Positions 50,924-62,168 of a stretch of DNA of 64,000 nucleotides are shown piece by piece; positions within the stretch are counted from its first letter, which is position 1, and each line of letters starts with the position of its first letter. Under the pieces are notes generated by a model. That model saw only the letters and a program-made list of their open reading frames with translations. It ran no database searches and was not told the origin of the DNA. The stretch covers positions 1-64,000 of the forward strand of contig CANLLN010000005.1 in NCBI GenBank assembly GCA_947491945.1, given 5' to 3'. The DNA comes from an uncultured Carboxylicivirga sp. Lineage in GTDB: Bacteria > Bacteroidota > Bacteroidia > Bacteroidales > Marinilabiliaceae. Both the position numbers and the translations under genes were made by a program.

Positions 50924-52171
50924 ATGGAAGCAAAGAAGCTACAATTAGAGAAGTCATTAAACGAATTAGAAAAAGGTAGAACCCTGATTCCCGGCGGAGT
51001 ATTAGGCATTCGTCGCCCCTATAACTTCGTAGAAGGTGAGTTCCCCATTTATTTCGATCATGGTCAGGGTGGACGCGTTACCGACATCGACGGTAACGAA
51101 TACATCGACTATCTGTGTGCCTACGGCCCTATAATACTGGGGAACCGCGAGAAGGAAGTGGACGACGCAGTGATTGAACAAATTCAGAACAAAGGTTTTT
51201 GTTTCTCACTAACACAGACCTATCAAAACATGCTGGCCGAAAAAATGAACGAACTCATTCCCTGCGCCGAAATGAGTCTGTTTGTTTGCACAGGTTCTGA
51301 TGCTACCACCACAGCCATTCGTTTGGCCCGTTCCTACACTCAGCGTAACAAGGTGATGCGCTGCGGTTATCATGGCTGGCACGACTGGTGCGTGGAAGTA
51401 AAAGGCGGCATCCCCAAAAAGTTATATGAAGACGTGCATGAGTTTGAGTATAACAACCTGGATTCGCTGGAAAATCTACTGAAAGAATACGGTGACGATA
51501 CCGCAGCGGTTATCATCACGCCCCTGGGGCATCCCCTGGCGGCACCCATTACCGAGCCCAAGGCCGGTTTCCTCGAAGGCGTAAAGGCCTTGTGTGAACA
51601 ATACGGCGTGGTGCTGATCTTTGACGAAATTCGCACCGGTTTCCGTGCCAGCATTGGCGGAGCGCAAAAGCTCTACAAAGTAACACCCGACCTGGCCGTT
51701 TTTGGCAAGGCCATGGCCAACGGATATCCCATAGGAGCCGTTACCGGGAAGGCTGAAATTATGAAAGAGGGTGAGTCCAATGTTTTCATCTCCTCCACCT
51801 TCTTCCCCAACAGTCTGAGCTATATAGCCGCCCTTAAAACCATTGAAATACTTCAACGCGACAAGGTGCTGGACAAAATTTGGGAAAAAGGCGAAGAGTT
51901 TAACGGAAAAATTGAGAAGCTGCTGACGAAATATCCGGTTGGAGCACGCATTAGTGGTATTGCTCCAATGATGTTCATCACTTTTGATAAAGATGAAGAT
52001 GGAAGCTACAAAAAGAAACGCAACGATTTCTACACTCAACTGATTCGTCGCAAAGTATTCCTGCAGCCCTATCACCATGGTTACATCTGCCATCGTCATA
52101 CACAGGAAGACCTGGACTACACTGTGAAGGCCATTGAAGAAGCCCTGCAATATTTAACTGATAATTACTAA
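50924..52171 (+). CDS. kat: class III aminotransferase, probable acyl-CoA beta-transaminase (Kat)
   Basis: A 415-residue PLP enzyme of the glutamate-1-semialdehyde-aminotransferase-like group. CTGSDATTTAIRLAR is the phosphate-binding segment, GYHGWHDW at 148-155 stacks on PLP, D234 in IFDEIRTGFR binds the pyridine nitrogen and K262 in VFGKAMANGYPIG is the Schiff-base lysine. Heme-synthesis GSAM is unlikely: the gene heads a lysine-degradation operon that lacks the ammonia-lyase Kal. The acyl-CoA beta-transaminase Kat, first described from an anaerobic-digester metagenome, is a class III aminotransferase doing the replacement step, 3-aminobutyryl-CoA + 2-oxoglutarate to acetoacetyl-CoA + glutamate. 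That assignment is by family and context. Confidence 0.75.
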   Translation: MEAKKLQLEKSLNELEKGRTLIPGGVLGIRRPYNFVEGEFPIYFDHGQGGRVTDIDGNEYIDYLCAYGPIILGNREKEVDDAVIEQIQNKGFCFSLTQTYQNMLAEKMNELIPCAEMSLFVCTGSDATTTAIRLARSYTQRNKVMRCGYHGWHDWCVEVKGGIPKKLYEDVHEFEYNNLDSLENLLKEYGDDTAAVIITPLGHPLAAPITEPKAGFLEGVKALCEQYGVVLIFDEIRTGFRASIGGAQKLYKVTPDLAVFGKAMANGYPIGAVTGKAEIMKEGESNVFISSTFFPNSLSYIAALKTIEILQRDKVLDKIWEKGEEFNGKIEKLLTKYPVGARISGIAPMMFITFDKDEDGSYKKKRNDFYTQLIRRKVFLQPYHHGYICHRHTQEDLDYTVKAIEEALQYLTDNY

Positions 52172-52180
52172 ACACAAAGT

Positions 52181-52214
52181 ACCGCTGAGGCTCTGAAGGG
52201 TCTCAGTGGTTTTA
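52181..52214 (+). terminator. internal terminator-like hairpin after kat
   Basis: Stem ACCGCTGAG / CTCAGTGGT (one G-U pair), 12-base loop, then a T4 run. It lies between the first and second genes of the operon, 14 bases before the next start, and may reduce downstream transcription relative to kat. Confidence 0.5.
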
Positions 52215-52227
52215 AACCCTCCCCGAT

Positions 52228-53211
52228 ATGAGCAATCAACAATTAAAAAACGGTATTGGCGAACTATTTATGTCGCCCGATGCCGACCAAATGCGGGACT
52301 TTCTGCGCCACAAAAAAAAGCAACTAAAAAGCAAGGTGACAACAGTATCAGAGGCCATCGACACACTGGTGAATGATGGCGACTACCTGGCCATTGGTGG
52401 CTTTGGCGGCGTACGCATACCCACGGCACTGATTCATGAAATCATTCGCAAAAAGAAAAAAGATCTGGGCTTTGCCGGTCATGTATCCACGCACGATTGT
52501 CAGCTGCTGAGTGCCGGTCAATCTTTTAATCGCTGCGATGCGGCCTACATCGTGGGCTTGGAAGCACGGGGACTGTCTAAAAACTCGCGCCGCATGTTCG
52601 AATCAGGTAATGTGAAGGTAACAGAATGGTCCAATGGAGCCCTGTCGTGGCGCTTTAAGGCAGCCGCCATGGGTTTGCCCTATCTGCCCTCACGCGTAAT
52701 GCTAGGCACCGATACCTTTAAACACTCGGCTGCCAAAGAAGTAGCCTGCCCATTCACAGGACAAAAGCTAGCCGCTCTGCCAGCCCTCTATCCTGATGTG
52801 GCCATCATTCATGTGCACCGTGCCGATGTGTACGGCAACTGCCAAATCGATGGTATCCTAGTGGCCGATGATGATATTGCCAAAGCCTCCAAGCGCGTTA
52901 TCATCACCACTGAAAAAATCATATCCAACGAAGAAATACGACGCGAACCCTCAAAAACTGTTATCCCCTACTGGTGTGTAGATGCCGTGATTGAAGTTCC
53001 CTTTGGTTCCTATCCTGGCAATATGCCGGGCGAATACTTCTCTGACGAAGAACATCTTACCGATTGGTTAATGACCGAAAAGGACGAGGAAGCATTGAAA
53101 AAGTTTATCGATCACCATATCCTGTCGTCAAAAGACTTTTACGACTACCTATCGAAGAATGGCGGCATGAACAAGATGCGCAAACTCATGAAAGATGAAC
53201 ACCTGTACTAA
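52228..53211 (+). CDS. family I CoA-transferase, subunit A
   Basis: A 327-residue alpha subunit similar in size and features to glutaconate CoA-transferase A. LAIGGFGGVRIPTALI is the GxGGF-type CoA-binding motif and DVAIIHVHRADVYGNCQID is the family segment before the C-terminal half. In lysine degradation the enzyme can load CoA onto the acetoacetate released by Kce. The actual donor and acceptor are not readable from sequence. Subunit B follows after 20 bases. Confidence 0.85.
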   Translation: MSNQQLKNGIGELFMSPDADQMRDFLRHKKKQLKSKVTTVSEAIDTLVNDGDYLAIGGFGGVRIPTALIHEIIRKKKKDLGFAGHVSTHDCQLLSAGQSFNRCDAAYIVGLEARGLSKNSRRMFESGNVKVTEWSNGALSWRFKAAAMGLPYLPSRVMLGTDTFKHSAAKEVACPFTGQKLAALPALYPDVAIIHVHRADVYGNCQIDGILVADDDIAKASKRVIITTEKIISNEEIRREPSKTVIPYWCVDAVIEVPFGSYPGNMPGEYFSDEEHLTDWLMTEKDEEALKKFIDHHILSSKDFYDYLSKNGGMNKMRKLMKDEHLY

Positions 53212-53231
53212 CAATAAAAATACCCAACAAC

Positions 53232-54008
53232 ATGGAAAATTCATATAATCCAATGGAGCTGATGATTACGATTGCCGCACGTAGTCTGGAAGACGGCGCA
53301 ATGGTGGTCGTTGGAACAGGTGTTCCGGTGGCTGCTGCCATGCTGGCACAGATGACCCAGTCACCCAACCTCACAATTATGTTTGAGGCCGGCGGAATAG
53401 CACCCCTACTGCCCACCATGCCCATCTCAGTAGGCGATTCGCGCACCACCCACAAAGGACTGAAAGCTACTTCCATGGCCGAGATTATGGAATTATGCCA
53501 GGCCGGCGTGGTGGATTACTGCTTCCTGGGAGGGGCACAGATTGATCAATTTGGCAACCTCAATTCCACCCTTATCGGCGATGATTACAACAAGCCCAAA
53601 ACACGCTTCCCCGGCAGTGGCGGTGCCAACGACCTTGCCTCGCTGTGCTGGCGTACCCTGGTGGTAACGCCCCAAAACCCCAAGCGCTTTGCCAATAAGG
53701 TAGATTTCATCACATCGCCGGGCTATCTGGAAGGAGGTACCTCGCGCACCGATGCCGGACTACCGGCTCACACCGGCCCCTATAAGGTAATTACCGATAT
53801 CGGTGTATATGGTTATCATCCCACTTCCAAAGCCATGATGTTATTGTCCTTGCATCCCGGAAAAACACTGGAGGATGTGAAAGCCAATGCACAGTTCGAC
53901 ATCATCATACCCGATGACTACAAAACAACACTTAAACCCAGCGCCGAGGAACTAAAAATATTGCGTGAGAAAGTAGATCCATGCGGCGTGATCATTGGAC
54001 GTGGCTAA
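53232..54008 (+). CDS. family I CoA-transferase, subunit B
   Basis: A 258-residue beta subunit. The catalytic glutamate is probably E52 in IMFEAGGIAPLLP, matching the E-(A/S/N)-G motif of family I. VDYCFLGGAQIDQFGNLNST and FPGSGGANDLASLC are further conserved segments. It forms a heterodimer or octamer with the preceding subunit. In this operon it should interconvert acetoacetate and acetoacetyl-CoA using acetyl-CoA or another acyl-CoA (inference). Confidence 0.85.
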   Translation: MENSYNPMELMITIAARSLEDGAMVVVGTGVPVAAAMLAQMTQSPNLTIMFEAGGIAPLLPTMPISVGDSRTTHKGLKATSMAEIMELCQAGVVDYCFLGGAQIDQFGNLNSTLIGDDYNKPKTRFPGSGGANDLASLCWRTLVVTPQNPKRFANKVDFITSPGYLEGGTSRTDAGLPAHTGPYKVITDIGVYGYHPTSKAMMLLSLHPGKTLEDVKANAQFDIIIPDDYKTTLKPSAEELKILREKVDPCGVIIGRG

Positions 54009-54060
54009 TAACCCCTTCTTCACACCCACACCTTTAATCAACAACTAAAACTCTGAAAAA

Positions 54061-54888
54061 ATGAAAAAAATGATAATTACCTGTGCAGTCTGCGGGGCGG
54101 AAACCACCCGCGAGCACAATCCTAACCTACCCTTAACACCACTAGAGATTGCCGAAGCCACTTACGATGCCTACAAGGCCGGTGCCGCTATTGTGCACCT
54201 GCATGTACGCGATAAGAATGGTGGACCCACGCAGGATCCGGAAGTATTTAAAGAGGCCATACGACTCATTCGCGAGCGCTGCGACATTGTTATTGAAATA
54301 ACAACAGGAGGCGCCGTAGGCATGACCGATGACGAGCGGGTGGCGGTTATTAAAGAACTACAGCCTGAGATGGCCTCGCTGGACTGTGGCACCGTTAACT
54401 TCGGCGATGAATACATTGTAAATACCCTGCCGACCATGCGACGCTTTGCCAAAGAGATGAATAAATACCAGGTGCGTCCCACCCTCGAATGCTTCGACAT
54501 ATCGCATGTGACAGCTGCCGATATCCTGATTAAAGAAGGGCTGCTAACCCCTCCGTACCACTATGGCTTTGTAATGAATGTGCCGGCGGCCATCCCCTAC
54601 GATGTAGAACTGCTCAATCTGCTCGTAAATCGTATTCCAAAAGGTGCTTTCTGGACCGTGATGGGCGTTGGCAGAGCCTGTGTGCCGGCGCACTATGGAA
54701 CTTTTGCCCTTGGCAATGGCTTTATTCGTGTAGGCTTCGAGGACAATGTGTACTATTCGAAAGGTGTGCTGGCCGAGAGTAATGCACAGCTGGTAGAGCG
54801 CACGGCCAAACTATCGCGCGATGCGGGCTACGAAATTGCCACACCGGCCGATGTACGTGAAATATTGCAATTAAAAGGAATTCAATAA
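54061..54888 (+). CDS. kce: 3-keto-5-aminohexanoate cleavage enzyme
   Basis: A 275-residue TIM-barrel enzyme of the BKACE (DUF849) family: 5-amino-3-oxohexanoate + acetyl-CoA gives 3-aminobutyryl-CoA + acetoacetate. The zinc ligands H46 and H48 are in HLHVRD and E227 in VGFEDN, the same set as in the characterised Cloacamonas enzyme (H46, H48, E230). MGVGRACVPAH and SLDCGTVNFGDE are other family segments. The operon position before kdd supports Kce over other BKACE activities. Confidence 0.93.
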   Translation: MKKMIITCAVCGAETTREHNPNLPLTPLEIAEATYDAYKAGAAIVHLHVRDKNGGPTQDPEVFKEAIRLIRERCDIVIEITTGGAVGMTDDERVAVIKELQPEMASLDCGTVNFGDEYIVNTLPTMRRFAKEMNKYQVRPTLECFDISHVTAADILIKEGLLTPPYHYGFVMNVPAAIPYDVELLNLLVNRIPKGAFWTVMGVGRACVPAHYGTFALGNGFIRVGFEDNVYYSKGVLAESNAQLVERTAKLSRDAGYEIATPADVREILQLKGIQ

Positions 54889-54966
54889 TGTCTTTAAAAG
54901 ACAGATTTAACTACAAAGTCTATTGATTCCACAAACGAAAAGCTATCAGCAATTAGCTTTCTTTTA
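54889..54966 (+). other. two hairpins between kce and kdd
   Basis: TGTCTT/AAGACA at 54889-54903 starts directly after the kce stop. AAAGCTA/TAGCTTT at 54938-54960 is followed by CTTTTA and so resembles a weak terminator. They occupy most of the 91-base gap and may tune expression of the downstream genes. Confidence 0.4.
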
Positions 54967-54979
54967 TCTACGATAAAAA

Positions 54980-56020
54980 ATGAAGATAGGAAACAAATAC
55001 GGTACACACCGGGTCATCGAACCCCAAGGCGTACTCCCCCAACCGGCCACCAAGGTGAACAATAACATAAATACCCTCTACGACAATGAACTGCTCATTG
55101 ATGTGGACGTGCTAAATATTGACTCCGCCAGCTTTACACAGATTAAAGAGGAGGCCAACGGAGACAAGGAAGCCATCAAATCCATTATTTTGGATATCGT
55201 ATCAAAGCAGGGAAAAATGAAAAACCCGGTTACCGGGTCAGGGGGCATGCTCATTGGCACCGTCAACAAGATAGGCCCGGCGCTGCAAGGTAAAATTGAC
55301 TTGAAGGAAGGCGATCGTATTGCCACCCTGATATCGCTCTCCCTAACCCCGCTGCGCATCGATGAGATACTGGATATTAAGACCGACATAGACCAGGTAA
55401 GAATCAAGGGAAAAGCCATTCTTTTTGAGAGCGGCATATATGCCAAACTACCTGATGACCTTTCGGAAACTCTGTCGCTGGCGGTACTGGATGTATGTGG
55501 TGCCCCCGCACAAACTGCACGTCTGGTGAAAGAAGGTGATACAGTGGTAGTGCTGGGTGCCGGTGGTAAATCCGGAATTTTATGTTGTGCCGTGGCTAAA
55601 CAGATGGTAGGTGACCAGGGACTGGTCATCGGCGCTGATTATTCCGATGAAAACATAGAACGTCTTCGTCAGGTGGAGGTATGCCACAAGGCCATAAAGC
55701 TGAATGCCACCGATGCACTGGGCTGCTATCAGACCATCGAAGCATTGAGTGAGGGAAAAATGGCCGATGTGGTAATTAACAATGTTAACATACCCAACAC
55801 AGAGATGGGCAGCATTTTAATGTGCAAAGAGCGTGGAACCGTGTATTTCTTCAGCATGGCAACCTCTTTTACCAAGGCGGCGCTGGGTGCCGAAGGCGTG
55901 GGCAAAGACGTGAATATGCTCATCGGCAACGGATATGCTGTGGGGCATGCCAACATGGCCATCGACATTTTAAGAAGGAATAAAAAAATCAGAAGCCTAT
56001 ACGAAGAACTGTACACATAA
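54980..56020 (+). CDS. kdd: L-erythro-3,5-diaminohexanoate dehydrogenase
   Basis: A 346-residue NAD(P)-dependent oxidative deaminase forming 5-amino-3-oxohexanoate and ammonia from 3,5-diaminohexanoate. The nucleotide site is VVLGAGGKSGILCCAVA. Start and middle segments (YGTHRVIEPQGVLPQPA, PVTGSGGMLIGTVN) agree with characterised Kdd. It lies between kce and kamA as in other lysine fermenters. Confidence 0.92.
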   Translation: MKIGNKYGTHRVIEPQGVLPQPATKVNNNINTLYDNELLIDVDVLNIDSASFTQIKEEANGDKEAIKSIILDIVSKQGKMKNPVTGSGGMLIGTVNKIGPALQGKIDLKEGDRIATLISLSLTPLRIDEILDIKTDIDQVRIKGKAILFESGIYAKLPDDLSETLSLAVLDVCGAPAQTARLVKEGDTVVVLGAGGKSGILCCAVAKQMVGDQGLVIGADYSDENIERLRQVEVCHKAIKLNATDALGCYQTIEALSEGKMADVVINNVNIPNTEMGSILMCKERGTVYFFSMATSFTKAALGAEGVGKDVNMLIGNGYAVGHANMAIDILRRNKKIRSLYEELYT

Positions 56021-56073: not shown

Positions 56074-57384
56074 ATGAAAAGAAAATTTACGAACGTTGAT
56101 TATAAAAGCATCCCCCTCTTTAAAGATGTAAGTGAGGAGGATTGGAACAACTGGAAGTGGCAGATGCGAAATGCCATTCGCGATGTACCCAGCTTACAAA
56201 AGGTATTACCCTTAAGCACAGAAGAACAGGAACACCTGGCCAGCACCCTGAAGAAATTCAAAATGGCTATTACTCCGTATTATGCGGCGCTGATGAGTAG
56301 GGAAGATGCCAAATGCCCGGTGCGCAAACTGGCCGTGCCAGCACTCAACGAGCTGCACATTGATGAGTCTGACTTAAGTGATCCTCTGCACGAAGATGTG
56401 GATTCGCCGGTACCCGGACTCACGCACCGTTATCCCGACCGCGCCTTACTGCTGGTAACCCATGAGTGTTCAATGTATTGCCGTCATTGCACTCGTCGAC
56501 GCATTGTGGGCGAAACCGATGAAGACATGGCCAAAGGACACTTAGAGCAGGCCTTTGAATACATTGCTCAAACACCCGAAATACGAGACATCGTCATCTC
56601 TGGCGGTGATCCACTGATCCTCAGCGACAATCGTCTTGACTATATCCTGGGAGAGCTGCGTAAGATCGATCATGTGGAGATTATTCGCATCGGCAGCCGC
56701 ATGCCGGTAGTATTACCCCAGCGCATCACCAATAACTTGTGCGAGATCATCAAAAAGCATCACCCCGTATATGTCAACACCCATTTTAATCACCCCAAGG
56801 AAATAACTGATGAAGCACGTTTAGCCTGTGAAAAACTGGCCAATGTTGGTGTCCAACTAGGCAACCAATCGGTACTGCTCAAAGGTATCAATGACTGCTC
56901 CAACATCATGAAAGCGCTAATGCACGACTTATTACGCATACGCGTGAAGCCTTATTATATCTATCAGTGCGACTTGTCCGAAGGAATATCTCACTTCCGC
57001 ACCACCATTTCCAAAGGCATTGAGATTATTGAGAACCTGCGTGGCCATACCACCGGAATGGCCGTACCTACCTTTGTTGTTGATGCACCCGGTGGCGGTG
57101 GCAAAATACCGGTGATGCCTGACTATCTGATTTCACAGACCGAGAAACGTGTGGTGCTGCGCAACTACGAAGGCATGATCACCAGCTACACACAACCCTC
57201 CGATTACCAAGGTCATAAAATTGAGGACTGTGATTTTTGCAGCGACGAAGCCCTGGTGGCCAAAGATGGTGTAGCCAAATTGCTGAATGAAGGCGGCACC
57301 ATCATTCCACAGTCACTTCGTCGCGAGAAACGCACCAATGGCAACAGCAAACACTATGTAAAGGCAAAAGCCGAGAGCAACTGA
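56074..57384 (+). CDS. kamA: L-lysine 2,3-aminomutase
   Basis: A 436-residue radical-SAM, PLP-dependent enzyme converting L-lysine to L-beta-lysine, the first step of the pathway. The cluster motif is C132-SMY-C136-RH-C139, followed by the family's TRRRIVG. PGGGGKIPVMPDY holds the PLP lysine, and CDFC near residue 390 belongs to the zinc-binding C-terminal part. Full length for the family. Oxygen-sensitive. EpmB-like enzymes are shorter and lack the C-terminal zinc region, and the operon context decides for KamA. Confidence 0.96.
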   Translation: MKRKFTNVDYKSIPLFKDVSEEDWNNWKWQMRNAIRDVPSLQKVLPLSTEEQEHLASTLKKFKMAITPYYAALMSREDAKCPVRKLAVPALNELHIDESDLSDPLHEDVDSPVPGLTHRYPDRALLLVTHECSMYCRHCTRRRIVGETDEDMAKGHLEQAFEYIAQTPEIRDIVISGGDPLILSDNRLDYILGELRKIDHVEIIRIGSRMPVVLPQRITNNLCEIIKKHHPVYVNTHFNHPKEITDEARLACEKLANVGVQLGNQSVLLKGINDCSNIMKALMHDLLRIRVKPYYIYQCDLSEGISHFRTTISKGIEIIENLRGHTTGMAVPTFVVDAPGGGGKIPVMPDYLISQTEKRVVLRNYEGMITSYTQPSDYQGHKIEDCDFCSDEALVAKDGVAKLLNEGGTIIPQSLRREKRTNGNSKHYVKAKAESN

Positions 57385-57392
57385 GAAGGTAT

Positions 57393-58256
57393 ATGAACAC
57401 AGGATACGCGCCATATCGCTTTACTAACACCACCACCTTTGTGATGGGCAACCGAAAGAATGCAGGTAAAACCACTTTTATGAACTGGGTTTTAAGCAGC
57501 ATTAGGAGGCTTGAATCACCGGCGTTTGCTACCATAGGGGTGGATGGTGAGCAACACGACCAGATTGATGGTCGTGCCAAGCCACAGGTTAAGTGCGAGC
57601 CGGGCGATGGTGTGGTAAGCAGCTATCCCATGTTGCAAAAAAGCAACGCTTTATTCAGGATAGAGAAGGCCTTTCCTATTAAAACACCCCTCGGCCAACT
57701 TGTTGCCGCCACAACCCTAAGGGCGGGTACACTTGAGCTGGTGGGCCCCGAACACAACGATCAGCTGCCGCTCATCACTGGTTTTCTTAAACATGAACTG
57801 GGTTATTCATCCCTAGTGATTGATGGAGCTGCCAGTCGTTTAACGCCGGTTGGGGCACTGTCCGACAGTGGCTTCTGCTACGTGCTTAACATCGACCGGC
57901 GCAACCTGAAGAAAGCCTTAGAACTGATGCAACTGTTGGCCTTTGGTGCAGCACTGAAAACCGCAACAGCCGGAGAGGAAGTGCATAGCATAGAGGGTGC
58001 CTTAACCGCCGCCCGCCTGCATACCTTGCCATCCGGATGTAAAGCTATTGAAGTAAATAATCTTACATCGCTCTTTTTGAGCTATGCACAACTTCAGAGC
58101 CTCACTTCAAATACCATACTGCGCGTACGACATCCACTTGAACTGCGTGCTTTTGTAATCATCCTCAAAGACATTACAGAAGCAGAATTTGAACAGCTTT
58201 ATCGCAGCAAAGGCATTAACACACCCTTAATCCACAACCCTTATGTGCATTCGTAA
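57393..58256 (+). CDS. kamB: KamB-like P-loop protein, probable aminomutase reactivase subunit
   Basis: A 287-residue protein found between kamA and kamD in lysine-fermenting bacteria. A P-loop is visible at 19-28 (GNRKNAGKTT); DSGFCYVLNIDRRN and SLVIDGAASRL may be the Walker B region. By context, and by the name used for this family in genome annotation, it should work with KamC to replace damaged B12 cofactor on lysine 5,6-aminomutase; I infer this and cannot see a catalytic proof. It starts 8 bases after kamA and overlaps kamC by 14 bases. Confidence 0.7.
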   Translation: MNTGYAPYRFTNTTTFVMGNRKNAGKTTFMNWVLSSIRRLESPAFATIGVDGEQHDQIDGRAKPQVKCEPGDGVVSSYPMLQKSNALFRIEKAFPIKTPLGQLVAATTLRAGTLELVGPEHNDQLPLITGFLKHELGYSSLVIDGAASRLTPVGALSDSGFCYVLNIDRRNLKKALELMQLLAFGAALKTATAGEEVHSIEGALTAARLHTLPSGCKAIEVNNLTSLFLSYAQLQSLTSNTILRVRHPLELRAFVIILKDITEAEFEQLYRSKGINTPLIHNPYVHS

Positions 58257-59826
58257 AGTCATAGCATTTACCGATTTCATGAGCTTCTACAACAAGTATA
58301 AGCCATTAACACCCTATGGCCATGCACATAAGGAAATGATGCCTTTCTACACCCGAGCCATGGAGCTGGACGAGATTCATCATCTTACAGATAAGCTAAT
58401 TGATTTTATTGGCAAAAAGGAAATGCAAGTCTTGAAAATGGAACATCATCTCAGTCGCATCGACAGACTAAATCCATTTGATAAGGAGACATATGACTGC
58501 GTTGACCTACATCTGATTAAGAAATTTCTGATTCACTTTAAGGCCATCGACGCCCTACTGGATGAAGATACTAAGAAACATTGCAGACTTGTGTTTGATT
58601 TATCGGAGACCTTGAATTTACTATCGCCCGATAAGGATAATAGCGAATCCTTCCATCTCTCATCAGCTTTCAACGATGAGTTAAAAAGCGCAAGAACAGA
58701 GCTAATTGCCACAGAAGCTGCCTTAACTGCCATACAACGGAATGTTCATCAGCAGATAAACAAACAATACAGCCTTGAACTGAATGGGCGCGACTTTATA
58801 CTGGTGGATAGATCCCGGCAGGAACTACTGGATGCCAGGCTGCTAAGCTGTGAATTTTACGATACACAACGAATGAAGATACTCCCTGTTTACGGCAAGG
58901 ATTATCTGGAGATACTGATAAAAAAAGAGGAACTCCTCATTAAGGAGGCACAAATTGAAAAAGCCATTCTCAAGCACCTCTCCATCCATATTCATAAGGT
59001 GAAGCATCGCCTGAAAAGTGGTATTTCAGCCATTCAACAGCTGGATACAAGCCTGGCCAAAGCACGCCTTGCCATCCGCTATAAACTAAGTAAGCCCGAC
59101 TTTACACATAGCAGTATCAGCATCAAAAATGGTGTCTACTATCCGCTTTACGAAAAATGCCGGGACAAAGGATTGGATTACACTCCACTGAATGCCAATT
59201 TCAAGAGCAACGCCAACCTACTATCAGGCTCAAACATGGGTGGTAAAACCGTGCTATTTAAAACCGTGGCCTTCCTGCAACTACTTACACAATTGGGCTT
59301 TCGCACTCCAGCCGAGGCCTATCACACCCGCCTCTTCTCCGGTATTCATATTTTGGGCACGCCCAATAACCGTAACATTGAAGGCCTCAGCTCTTTTGGG
59401 CAGGAGGTTCATCAGCTGTCCACCGCCCTGAGGGCCGGGCAGTCGCCCTTGCTACTGGTAGATGAACTGGCGAAAACTACCAATGCCACCGAAGCAAAAG
59501 CCATACTGTATGCCGCATTAAAGTATGTGGTGAGCAAGCCACTAATCAGCGGTTTTTTCTCCACGCACTTTATCAATATGCCAAAGATTAAAGGAGTGGG
59601 CAAATATCGCATGAAAGGACTTAATCACAAAGACTTGGGAAATTACTGTATGACCAAAACCTATGATATGGAGGAACGCATACGCCTGATCAACGCCTTT
59701 ATGGAGTATGAGGTGATAGAAGACAAAACAGGTGAACGCTCAAAAGATGCCATCGCCATTGCCCAACTACTTGGACTACAAGCCGAAATCATTAATGATG
59801 CCAACGACTACCTGGAACGAAAATAA
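58243..59826 (+). CDS. kamC: KamC-like MutS-family ATPase, probable aminomutase reactivase
   Basis: A 527-residue protein with the MutS ATPase domain but no mismatch-recognition domain. Walker A is SGSNMGGKT (329-336), Walker B and the following loop are LLLVDELAKTTNATEA near residues 405-420, and a long helical lever region (about 150-285) precedes them. LSSFGQEVHQLSTAL resembles the MutS signature segment. It is probably the motor of a B12-enzyme reactivation system rather than a DNA repair protein, because it is encoded inside the lysine operon directly before kamD. An in-frame ATG at 58279 (MSFYNKYKPLTPYG) could be the real start. Confidence 0.75.
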   Translation: MCIRKVIAFTDFMSFYNKYKPLTPYGHAHKEMMPFYTRAMELDEIHHLTDKLIDFIGKKEMQVLKMEHHLSRIDRLNPFDKETYDCVDLHLIKKFLIHFKAIDALLDEDTKKHCRLVFDLSETLNLLSPDKDNSESFHLSSAFNDELKSARTELIATEAALTAIQRNVHQQINKQYSLELNGRDFILVDRSRQELLDARLLSCEFYDTQRMKILPVYGKDYLEILIKKEELLIKEAQIEKAILKHLSIHIHKVKHRLKSGISAIQQLDTSLAKARLAIRYKLSKPDFTHSSISIKNGVYYPLYEKCRDKGLDYTPLNANFKSNANLLSGSNMGGKTVLFKTVAFLQLLTQLGFRTPAEAYHTRLFSGIHILGTPNNRNIEGLSSFGQEVHQLSTALRAGQSPLLLVDELAKTTNATEAKAILYAALKYVVSKPLISGFFSTHFINMPKIKGVGKYRMKGLNHKDLGNYCMTKTYDMEERIRLINAFMEYEVIEDKTGERSKDAIAIAQLLGLQAEIINDANDYLERK

Positions 59827-59835
59827 AAAGATACT

Positions 59836-61404
59836 ATGACACAATCTAAACTAAATCTGGATACCCAAAAAATCGACCTGGCGCGGGAGCTGTCGAAGCT
59901 GATTACCCGTCCCGTGAACAATTATATTGCACAGCATACCACCGTAGCCATTGAACGGGCTACCCTGCGCATGTTGGGTGCTGATGGCGTTACGGCCGAT
60001 GAAGTACCGGTGCCCAACGTTATTGTCAACGCTTTGGGCGACAAACTGCAATATGGCGCCTCTAAATATTACATCAATGCCCTGCTACGCAAAAACATGA
60101 GTATTGAACAGCTTAACGAAGCCATTGCCGACGGCCTGGACATCACCACCCTAACCCTCACTGACATGGCACTAATAGAAAACAAAGCCACTGAGCTGGT
60201 GACAGATTTCGCCCACCGTGTGAAGGAAAATGTAAACTATCGCAACGACCGCATCACAGCCTGTAAAGAAAAAGAAAATGCACCCCTGCTCTACCTCATC
60301 GTGGCCACAGGCAACATCTATGAAGATGTAAAACAGGCTCAAGCAGCTGCCCGTCAGGGTGCCGATATCATTGCGGTAATACGCACCACCGGCCAAAGCC
60401 TCCTCGACTTTGTGCCTTACGGCCCCACCACCGAAGGATTTGGAGGCACTTACGCCACACAGGAAAACTTTAAGATCATGCGCAAAGCCCTGGACGAGGT
60501 AGGCAACGACATTGGTAAATACATCCGACTGGTCAACTATTGCTCAGGCCTTTGCATGCCCGAGATTGCCGCCATGGGTGCCATCGAGCGCCTGGATATG
60601 ATGCTGAATGATTCCATGTACGGCGTACTGTTTCGCGATATCAACATGTACCGCACCTTCGTGGATCAGAAATTCTCGCGCATGATAAACGCCTTTGCCG
60701 GCATCGTTATTAACTCGGGCGAGGACAATTACCTGACCACCTCCGATGCCTATGAAAAAGCCTACACCGTAACAGCCTCACAGTTTATCAACGAGCAGTT
60801 TGCCTACGACTCAGGCTTACCGGCCAAACTGATGGGGCTGGGACATGCCTTTGAGATGAACCCTGAATTAGAGAACGGCTTCCTTTACGAGATGGCACAG
60901 GCTCAGATGGCACGCGAACTCTTCCCCGAAGCACCGCTAAAATACATGCCCCCTACCAAATACATGACGGGCGATATCTTTAAAGGCTATATCATGAATG
61001 TCCTCTTTAACTTCATCGCGAAAACCACCAACCAGGGTATCCTTTTGCTGGGCATGCTAACCGAAGCCATTCATACGCCCTTTATGCAGGATCGCTTTCT
61101 GGCGGTGGAAAATGCCCGTTACATAATCAATAACACCCGTGACTTTGCCAGTGATATAGAATTTAAAAAAGATGGCATCATGCAAAAACGGGCACAACAG
61201 GTACTGAACGAGACTATTGCCTTCCTGGAGCAAATCAATGAAAAAGGATTATTCGATTCCATTGAAGACAAATTATTTGCAGAGGTGAGTCGCCCTAAGC
61301 ATGGCGGTAAAGGATTTGAAGGTGTAAAAGAAAAAGCACCCGATTACTACAACCCTGTTTACGATTATTTAGAAGTTGAACTAGGCCTAAAAAATAAGAT
61401 ATGA
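59836..61404 (+). CDS. kamD: lysine 5,6-aminomutase, alpha subunit
   Basis: A 522-residue catalytic subunit. With KamE it uses adenosylcobalamin and PLP to convert L-beta-lysine to 3,5-diaminohexanoate. The TIM-barrel sequence contains the family segments IRTTGQSLLDFVPYGPTTEG and NYCSGLCMPEIAAMGAIE and keeps the family length. It starts 9 bases after kamC and overlaps kamE by four bases. Confidence 0.95.
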   Translation: MTQSKLNLDTQKIDLARELSKLITRPVNNYIAQHTTVAIERATLRMLGADGVTADEVPVPNVIVNALGDKLQYGASKYYINALLRKNMSIEQLNEAIADGLDITTLTLTDMALIENKATELVTDFAHRVKENVNYRNDRITACKEKENAPLLYLIVATGNIYEDVKQAQAAARQGADIIAVIRTTGQSLLDFVPYGPTTEGFGGTYATQENFKIMRKALDEVGNDIGKYIRLVNYCSGLCMPEIAAMGAIERLDMMLNDSMYGVLFRDINMYRTFVDQKFSRMINAFAGIVINSGEDNYLTTSDAYEKAYTVTASQFINEQFAYDSGLPAKLMGLGHAFEMNPELENGFLYEMAQAQMARELFPEAPLKYMPPTKYMTGDIFKGYIMNVLFNFIAKTTNQGILLLGMLTEAIHTPFMQDRFLAVENARYIINNTRDFASDIEFKKDGIMQKRAQQVLNETIAFLEQINEKGLFDSIEDKLFAEVSRPKHGGKGFEGVKEKAPDYYNPVYDYLEVELGLKNKI

Positions 61405-62168
61405 ACAATATGATACGTCCCTATGGCGATACCCTGAACGATGGTGCTGTACAACTCTCATTCACCCTGCCGGTGCCCCACTCTGCCAAAGCCGATGAGG
61501 CAGCCCGGCAATACGCTCACAAACTGGGATTTGCAGAAGTGGAAGTAGTGCATTCCAATCCCTTGTCGGCTGACTTCTCCTTTTTTGTGGTGTATGGCAA
61601 ATCACAGCATCAGCTGGATTATGACAAGATAGAAGTGGAGGCTGTGGAAAAGTCCATGGATTTTTATGAAGTGAACAACTACATCAAAGAGCATATCAAA
61701 CGCAAGGTAGTAGTGGTAGGCGCCTGCACCGGCACCGATGCGCACACCGTAGGCATAGACGCCATTATGAACATGAAAGGCTTTGACCAGCACTATGGCT
61801 TAGAGCGCTACCCCATGATGGAAGCCCACAACCTGGGAGCACAGGTAGCCAACGAAGAGCTCATCAGAAAAGCCATTGAACTGAATGCCGATGCAATACT
61901 GGTGTCGCAGGTAGTAACACAAAAAGAGGTACACATACAAAACATGACGGATCTGGTGGAACTACTGGAGGCCGAGGGCCTGCGCTCCAAACTGATTGTG
62001 TGTGCCGGCGGACCCCGCATCAGCAATAAACTGGCACTGGAGCTGGGCTACGACGCAGGCTTTGGCCGTGGTACTTTTCCCGAAAATGTGGCCTCCTTTA
62101 TTGTTGAAAAAATGGTGGAGCGAAAAAGCCAATTGCTACTGACTACAAACCAACAGCTATTTACATGA
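61401..62168 (+). CDS. kamE: lysine 5,6-aminomutase, beta subunit
   Basis: A 255-residue B12-binding subunit. The cobalt-ligand motif is D113-A-H115-T-V-G118, and K126 lies 11 residues after H115, the same distance as the PLP lysine K144 from H133 in the Clostridium sticklandii enzyme. The Rossmann B12 domain continues through AILVSQVVTQKEVHIQN and LIVCAGGPRIS. The ATG overlaps the kamD stop, keeping a 1:1 ratio. Confidence 0.95.
   Translation: MNNMIRPYGDTLNDGAVQLSFTLPVPHSAKADEAARQYAHKLGFAEVEVVHSNPLSADFSFFVVYGKSQHQLDYDKIEVEAVEKSMDFYEVNNYIKEHIKRKVVVVGACTGTDAHTVGIDAIMNMKGFDQHYGLERYPMMEAHNLGAQVANEELIRKAIELNADAILVSQVVTQKEVHIQNMTDLVELLEAEGLRSKLIVCAGGPRISNKLALELGYDAGFGRGTFPENVASFIVEKMVERKSQLLLTTNQQLFT

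Follow-up and report, generated by a model that had tools for sequence, protein, structure and literature searches.

Lysine 5,6-aminomutase (KamDE) requires both pyridoxal phosphate (PLP) and B12, and Stadtman's native lysine mutase had an auxiliary protein, E2, of ~80 kDa, which let ATP activate the E1 protein (PMC3958899). E2 had adenosylcobalamin synthetase activity and transferred label from ATP to E1; recombinant KamDE alone underwent suicide inactivation and showed no effect of ATP (PMC3958899). Such inactivation has been named as the obstacle to the use of lysine 5,6-aminomutase as a biocatalyst (PMC12429584). Here, we examined two genes, kamB and kamC, of a lysine fermentation operon in a stretch of 64,000 nucleotides (the window; positions 1 to 64,000 of contig CANLLN010000005.1, assembly GCA_947491945.1) from an uncultured Carboxylicivirga sp. 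of the Marinilabiliaceae, order Bacteroidales. The first (57393..58256) encodes a predicted SIMIBI-class P-loop NTPase of 287 amino acids (aa), and the second (58243..59826) encodes a 527-aa ATPase of the MutS2 clade; these and all other features described below are on the + strand. KamB and KamC occurred with KamD and not with the sister enzyme OraE, and we propose that the two probably form a dedicated system, driven by nucleoside triphosphates, that services KamDE, most likely by repairing or reloading its B12 cofactor.

The closest description of the pair is found in NCBIfam, where NF052383 (KamC) is labelled the ATPase, and NF052386 (KamB) a subunit, of lysine 5,6-aminomutase reactivase; the proposed family and role are therefore not new. 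The window resembles these families in that KamC passes the cut-off, the N-terminal half of KamB matches and the operon setting is the same, and it differs in that its KamB is short and falls below the cut-off. A sequence-only reading of the window had called the mechanism poorly described, and in keeping with this no paper on the function of KamB or KamC was found in the open-licence literature, a search with most subscription papers and preprints outside its reach. Their function is likewise not described in the accessible parts of PMC12429584, PMC3958899, PMC9105233, PMC3091704, PMC4697335 and PMC4256349.

Several other B12 enzymes have described helpers. The G-protein MMAA wedges between domains of methylmalonyl-CoA mutase and keeps the B12 domain rotated outward by ~180 degrees, so that cofactor can be loaded or off-loaded (PMC10356863). 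The diol dehydratase reactivases DdrAB and EutA resemble the proposed system in that damaged B12 is released in an ATP-dependent manner (PMC10356863). Ornithine 4,5-aminomutase, a homologous PLP/B12 aminomutase, has an adjoining accessory gene, as KamDE does, but its product, Or-4, is related to GlmL (Pfam MutL, PF13941), a family unrelated to KamB and KamC. We also take the folds of DdrAB and EutA to differ from those predicted for KamB and KamC. MMAA/MeaB, a B12-loading GTPase that we take to be of the SIMIBI class, is comparable to KamB in its broad class and in the analogous action on a B12 domain proposed below; no sequence relation between the two was found, KamB is paired with a MutS-type ATPase, and the likeness holds at class level only.

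Co-occurrence of KamB and KamC with KamD

Operon position alone was set aside as evidence, and weight was given instead to co-occurrence among genomes that carry the genes unlinked. Across the phylum, the host genome was alone among 395 genomes in having KamD over the cut-off. In 295 genomes of the window's order, the same set being searched for all three proteins, KamD was detected in 38 and KamB in the identical 38, as a comparison of the genome lists established. KamC exceeded its cut-off in 36 of these and in no other genome; the two exceptions were a genome whose KamC is a fragment, next to kamB where a contig ends (G399), and one that was 68% complete (G633). Neither KamB (E value of 0.001) nor KamC (E value of 1e-70) was detected in any of the 257 genomes without KamD. 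Four genomes (G395, G474, G576 and G664) carried kamD, kamB and kamC each on a separate contig, indicating that the co-occurrence exceeds operon hitch-hiking.

A similar pattern was observed in the order of Caloramator (G698) in the Clostridia, in which OraE was searched for in 194 genomes and KamD, KamB and KamC were searched for in 78 of them. These 78 were hand-picked and comprised 55 with OraE over the cut-off, 15 with KamD-like or broken matches and 8 listed without a match. KamD was present in 53 genomes, KamB in the identical 53 and KamC in 52 (all but G755). KamB was absent from all 25 genomes without KamD, and both KamB and KamC were absent from the 17 genomes with OraE only and from the 8 with neither OraE nor KamD. 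In both of the oraE operons examined, the GlmL-related Or-4 protein adjoined oraE. These results indicated that each of the two homologous PLP/B12 aminomutases has helpers of its own, and the tie of KamB and KamC to KamDE that had been claimed from the window itself was borne out. Two genomes of this order showed individual features. In G755 (contig C1, ~766-770 kb and 2025 kb), kamD, kamB and oraE were each disrupted by stops or breaks of the frame, a case of joint decay, and G909 had two complete kamB-kamC-kamD sets, on contigs C16 and C21.

The association was also followed across phyla, using the best 80 of 581 loci and a genome-wide check of 39 of 40 KamD genomes from many phyla (the genome of L133 was left out). 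KamB was found in 35 of the 39 and KamC in 30, of which 25 exceeded the cut-off and 5 scored lower and were assigned from operon or tree position (G694, G701, G696, G697 and G700). Among the genomes searched, KamC was seen without KamB in one case only, where a contig ends (G722). KamB is thus the steadier partner of the pair and probably its core, since it occurs without KamC (see below) and the reverse was seen only in G722.

Folds and ancestry of KamC and KamB

KamC matched NF052383 with 386.2 bits (cut-off, 300) over model positions 2-508 of 508 and fell below the cut-off of the mutS2 family model (110 bits; cut-off, 400). Its structure was predicted with a predicted local distance difference test (pLDDT) score of 90.8 and a predicted template modeling (pTM) score of 0.85. 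In structural comparisons, the best agreement was with Bacillus subtilis MutS2 (9a5o_B; Z score, 33.3; 467 residues aligned; root mean square deviation, 4.9; MutS2 residues 1-515), with further matches to the MutS2 core in 7qv3 (Z, 30.6) and 9kce (Z, 30.5). The match to Escherichia coli MutS (3zlj; Z, 30.4) covered MutS residues 268-796. MutS domain V was the only Pfam domain in KamC; MutS domains I and II were absent by Pfam and by the start of the structural match at E. coli residue 268, and MSSS and Smr were absent by Pfam. The earlier statement that KamC lacks a mismatch-recognition domain was therefore upheld. The host genome has a separate MutS with Pfam domains I-V and a separate MutS2 with MutS_V, MSSS and Smr.

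The ATPase motifs of KamC were intact. GSNMGGKT (Walker A; residues 329-336; 59227..59250) and DELAKTT (Walker B/D-loop; residues 407-413; 59461..59481), both noted previously, were read in the open reading frame (ORF), the latter lying at the site of DExGxGT in MutS and MutS2. A signature-like motif, GLSSFGQE (residues 381-388; 59383..59406), aligned with the 'ST' motif of these proteins. In alignment A3 (36 KamC sequences, leaving out the partial L099, L113, L116 and L127), G329, N331, M332, G334 and K335 of Walker A, G381, L382, S383 and E388 of the signature-like motif, D407, E408 and T413 of Walker B and the His of the His-loop were invariant (36/36). The lever-like helical region described earlier was visible in the model, together with a clamp that had been overlooked, a beta segment at the tip of the lever (residues ~178-222; 58774..58908) between helices 145-176 and 219-252 that aligned with the MutS/MutS2 clamp. 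The clamp was wholly absent from 8 of the 36 aligned KamCs and was reduced to fewer than 15 residues in all 29 order-mates; because the order-mates lack it, it is not essential. A motor able to drop its nucleic acid clamp without leaving its partner enzyme is unlikely to act on DNA.

A tree of 59 rows (36 KamCs, 3 candidates, 9 MutS2, 7 MutS1 and 4 others) was used to place KamC. The KamCs and the 3 candidates formed one clade of 39 rows that included the KamC of the window (support, 100/99), and KamC plus MutS2 was separated from MutS1 and the other rows (support, 100/99). The description of KamC as a MutS-like motor thus stood, with the correction that it belongs with MutS2 and not with MutS1. 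KamC shares the core fold (residues 1-515) of MutS2 from B. subtilis, Thermotoga maritima and Thermus thermophilus, its nearest clade, and differs from it in having no MSSS or Smr domain, in the frequent loss of the clamp and in its tie to a metabolic enzyme. Overall, KamC is a MutS2-clade ATPase reduced to lever, clamp and ATPase. More short MutS-like ATPases of ~390-616 aa (L004, on contig C6 of the host genome, and L214-L216) fell on the MutS1 side of the tree.

KamB matched NF052386 with 114.1 bits (cut-off, 210) over residues 17-151 only, its 287 residues comparing with a model of 326 positions; the full-length kinship of this short KamB to the long ones rests on iterative profiles and on alignment A2 (38 sequences, leaving out L105, L115 and L173, the last at a contig end). 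A P-loop NTPase was predicted (pLDDT, 91; pTM, 0.88), with structural matches to FlhF (Z, 12.8), Ffh (12.3), BioD (11.9) and Get3/TRC40 (11.7) and, lower, to HypB (9.8), cobyrinic acid a,c-diamide synthase (9.8) and the nitrogenase Fe protein (9.5). The best 50 structural rows (Z, 9.5-12.8) were mainly signal recognition particle (SRP) GTPases, Get3, BioD, MinD/ParA, HypB and NifH, all of which we take to be SIMIBI proteins, and the predicted fold places KamB, at class level, in this class. The conserved motifs were GxxKNxGKT, SIGxDGE and DGAxxR. In the P-loop (GNRKNAGKTT; residues 19-28; 57447..57476), G19, K26 and T27 were invariant (38/38) and K22 and G25 were present in at least 90% of sequences; D144, G145 and R149 of the DGAxxR motif (residues 144-149; 57822..57839), a probable Walker B region, were also invariant (38/38).

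No Pfam family was assigned to the KamB of the window at an E value of 0.1, and cobW was found in 2 of 38 members (best E value, 0.081); a CobW_C match with an E value of 0.24 was regarded as noise. Matches to repebody and leucine-rich repeat proteins (residues 207-270; best E value, 2.9e-5), obtained with phmmer against PDB sequences, were not repeated by a profile of the 38 KamBs. As the structural matches are to P-loop NTPases, the repeat matches were attributed to chance in a leucine-rich segment.

Two forms of KamB were distinguished by a variable segment, which has 21-35 residues in the short form of the window's lineage (61 in one member) and 63-81 in the long form of Clostridia, Bacteroidales, Asgard archaea and others. 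The 10 short-lineage genomes among the 39 scored were all under the NF052386 cut-off, as is the KamB of the window, and the only other KamB under it was a contig-end fragment. On these sequence comparisons, the short KamBs are a distinct lineage, beyond the range of the NCBI model.

Operon setting and inheritance

The operon comprises genes for a kat-like aminotransferase, CoA-transferase subunits, kce and kdd (50924..56020; assigned from ORFs and NCBIfam, with kat from gene position), followed by kamA, kamB, kamC, kamD, kamE and a thiolase gene. Lysine 2,3-aminomutase is encoded by kamA (56074..57384; TIGR03820, 616 bits), and kamD (59836..61404; NF052384, 824 bits) and kamE (61401..62168; NF052385, 402 bits, with a Pfam B12-binding match spanning residues 104-226) follow kamC. 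The sequence-only reading had placed kamB and kamC between kamA and kamD with overlapping frames. The position was correct, but only kamB and kamC overlap (14 nucleotides [nt]), the kamA/kamB and kamC/kamD junctions having gaps of 8 and 9 nt, respectively; kamD and kamE overlap by 4 nt. The start codon chosen for kamC was supported by Carboxylicivirga proteins that begin at the same point. The kamB-kamC order between kamA and kamD was found again across phyla, which argues that the arrangement is not due to chance. A promoter and terminator scan was uninformative (16 promoter-like sites versus a shuffle mean of 20.2; 16 terminator-like sites versus 14.8).

The gene at 50924-52171 encodes a class III aminotransferase whose best NCBIfam matches, below the cut-off, were to glutamate-1-semialdehyde aminomutase models. 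From its position and from PMC3149608, it is probably kat, whose product is the 3-aminobutyryl-CoA transaminase in a variant of the lysine pathway. That paper describes a metagenome contig with clustered lysine fermentation genes and kat at the kal locus, and a figure legend names a MutS-family gene.

Evidence of joint inheritance came from the trees. The 22 operons that share the KamC clade of the window also clustered in a quick KamD tree, with one intruder, a Fibrobacteria KamD (L122, G695) on the longest end branch (0.81). In L122, kamA is followed directly by kamD, and neither kamB nor kamC was found in that genome. The short and long forms of KamB followed the same split as the KamC and KamD groupings. 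The KamD and KamC of the window grouped with Marinilabiliaceae, beside Muiribacteriota, Elusimicrobiota, Spirochaetota and Acidobacteriota and not with other Bacteroidales, and KamD, KamB and KamC were all absent from three other genomes of the window's family. This distribution suggested that the operon was probably acquired as one unit.

Variant arrangements were seen elsewhere. Asgard archaea (Lokiarchaeota and Prometheoarchaeum; L142, L144, L157, L173 and L127) have lysine fermentation genes, some with kamB only and others with kamC as well. The betaproteobacterium Paucibacter (L149 and L168) has a kamA-kdd-kamB-kamD-kamE operon, as read in L149, with a low-scoring kamA and no kamC. In L123, L124 and L131 (Lujinxingia, a proteobacterium and a Myxococcales contig), KamD was present and its fetched flank contained neither kamA nor kamE; elsewhere in these genomes lay KamB and a protein of the KamC clade.

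A proposed service system for KamDE

The proposal that KamB and KamC service KamDE builds on the gene order, the predicted folds, the intact ATPase motifs, the MutS2 ancestry of KamC, co-occurrence with KamD and not OraE, co-inheritance and the loss, in some lineages, of KamC with KamB retained. Because KamB is the steadier component, the mechanism is centred on KamB with KamC helping. KamB, as the core part, would dock on KamDE and keep KamE's B12 domain swung out and open to solvent, as MMAA does on methylmalonyl-CoA mutase. Damaged cobalamin, formed on loss of the radical pair, would then exit and intact adenosylcobalamin enter, the cofactor being the item that we suppose to be moved. A putative KamC dimer would apply the ATP-driven motion of its lever to the KamB-KamDE complex in place of DNA, and as a helper it may reset or release this complex; the order of these steps is likewise a proposal.

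Several observations weigh against this proposal. The NCBIfam name 'reactivase' has no visible experiment behind it. For KamB, no Foldseek match fell below an E value of 0.001 (the best was Get3, with 0.0038), so that it is assigned at class level only, and its Z scores of 9.5-12.8 place it no more narrowly than the broad SIMIBI class, short of an assignment to G3E. Neither kamB nor kamC lay in the fetched flank of 36 of the 80 cross-phylum loci (44 had one or both); some of these contigs were too short, and elsewhere the genes lie apart (e.g., G717, G719 and G720). Among the 39 genomes checked, KamD occurred with neither helper in three (G695, Fibrobacteria, 5.4 Mb; G710, 1.0 Mb; G715, 2.0 Mb), KamB was missing at a contig edge in one that had a contig-end KamC fragment (G722), and KamB occurred without KamC in five (Lokiarchaeota G703, G704 and G707; Paucibacter G705 and G712). 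Two of the KamC-less Lokiarchaeota KamBs furthermore carried Ser at the P-loop Gly site. The five KamC-less genomes retain KamDE, one of the Lokiarchaeota genomes being a single 3.3-Mb chromosome, and KamC is therefore not always needed. As Lokiarchaeota KamDs nest beside those of KamC-bearing Asgard archaea and Clostridia in the KamD tree, KamC was probably lost in this group.

The pair may be Stadtman's E2 protein. In one form, KamB-KamC would be the E2 of the lysine mutase that ATP regulates, with a SIMIBI NTPase opening the B12 domain and a MutS2-derived motor powering or resetting it; we regard this as possible but less likely than not. About equally doubtful is the version in which KamB, with or without KamC, is the E2 of the native D-lysine mutase complex, makes KamDE responsive to ATP and takes part in placing the adenosyl group or adenosylcobalamin on E1. 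This version shares ground with the service proposal and differs in its weight, which lies on allosteric activation or in-place adenosylation and not on a swap of spent cofactor. The computed masses of clostridial KamB (~37 kDa; ~75 kDa as an assumed dimer) and KamC (56-62 kDa) can be set against the ~80 kDa of E2. Mass is the only link, however, with the dimeric state assumed, and we know of no sequence for E2. The synthetase activity of E2, its ATP activation of E1 and the lack of an ATP effect on recombinant KamDE are consistent with this identity, whereas ATP regulation was restored by OraS, a small subunit of the ornithine enzyme (PMC3958899). Furthermore, no known adenosyltransferase fold was present among the matches listed for the pair, which counts against in-place adenosylation but does not exclude it.

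It is unlikely that KamB and KamC are loading chaperones only, bringing adenosylcobalamin to new apo-KamDE or gating a cognate adenosyltransferase and leaving inactivated enzyme untouched. KamB falls in the broad class discussed above for the loading GTPase MMAA/MeaB, and MMAA (2www) was a weak Foldseek match to it (E value, 0.4). MMAA itself serves delivery as well as repair (PMC10356863). Against a role in loading alone, KamDE produced in E. coli and cobalamin depleted as purified was active in assays without KamB or KamC until it was inactivated (PMC3958899). Loading alone thus does not account for a need for the pair.

A service to the PLP side of the enzyme, at the PLP-lysine lock that sits between the KamDE subunits, is very improbable. 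OraE, which uses both PLP and B12, has an accessory of the GlmL type, whose family takes its name from methylaspartate (glutamate) mutase, a B12 enzyme that is not known to use PLP; this suggests that B12 is the shared need. The requirement of KamDE for PLP besides B12 (PMC3958899) speaks for the PLP side. Finally, that KamC is an ordinary DNA repair or ribosome rescue MutS2 paralog brought into the operon by chance is hardly credible, and it was rejected as a DNA repair protein because, for all its complete MutS2-core fold and intact ATPase motifs, it has its own clade apart from MutS2 and MutS1 (100/99), has no Smr or MSSS domain, lacks the clamp in many members, was confined to KamD-bearing genomes among the 295 and 78 searched and coexists with a separate MutS and MutS2 in the host.

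With the NCBIfam names already pointing to a reactivase, what is new here is the MutS2 ancestry of KamC with clamp loss, the SIMIBI class of KamB, the specificity for KamD over OraE, the steadier presence of KamB, the short-KamB lineage and a testable link to E2. If KamB and KamC restore KamDE, an enzyme that dies in the tube would become usable, and the identity of E2 could be settled. Two homologous aminomutases would in that case be served by unrelated repair systems, and KamC would be a MutS-family motor that works on an enzyme instead of a nucleic acid. If the E2 reading is correct, the pair would be a B12 repair machine distinct from the DdrA/GlmL and MeaB/MMAA types, with KamB alone sufficing in some archaea and proteobacteria, and KamC would be a MutS2-derived motor that turned from DNA and ribosomes to serving a metabolic enzyme and lost its clamp in some lineages.

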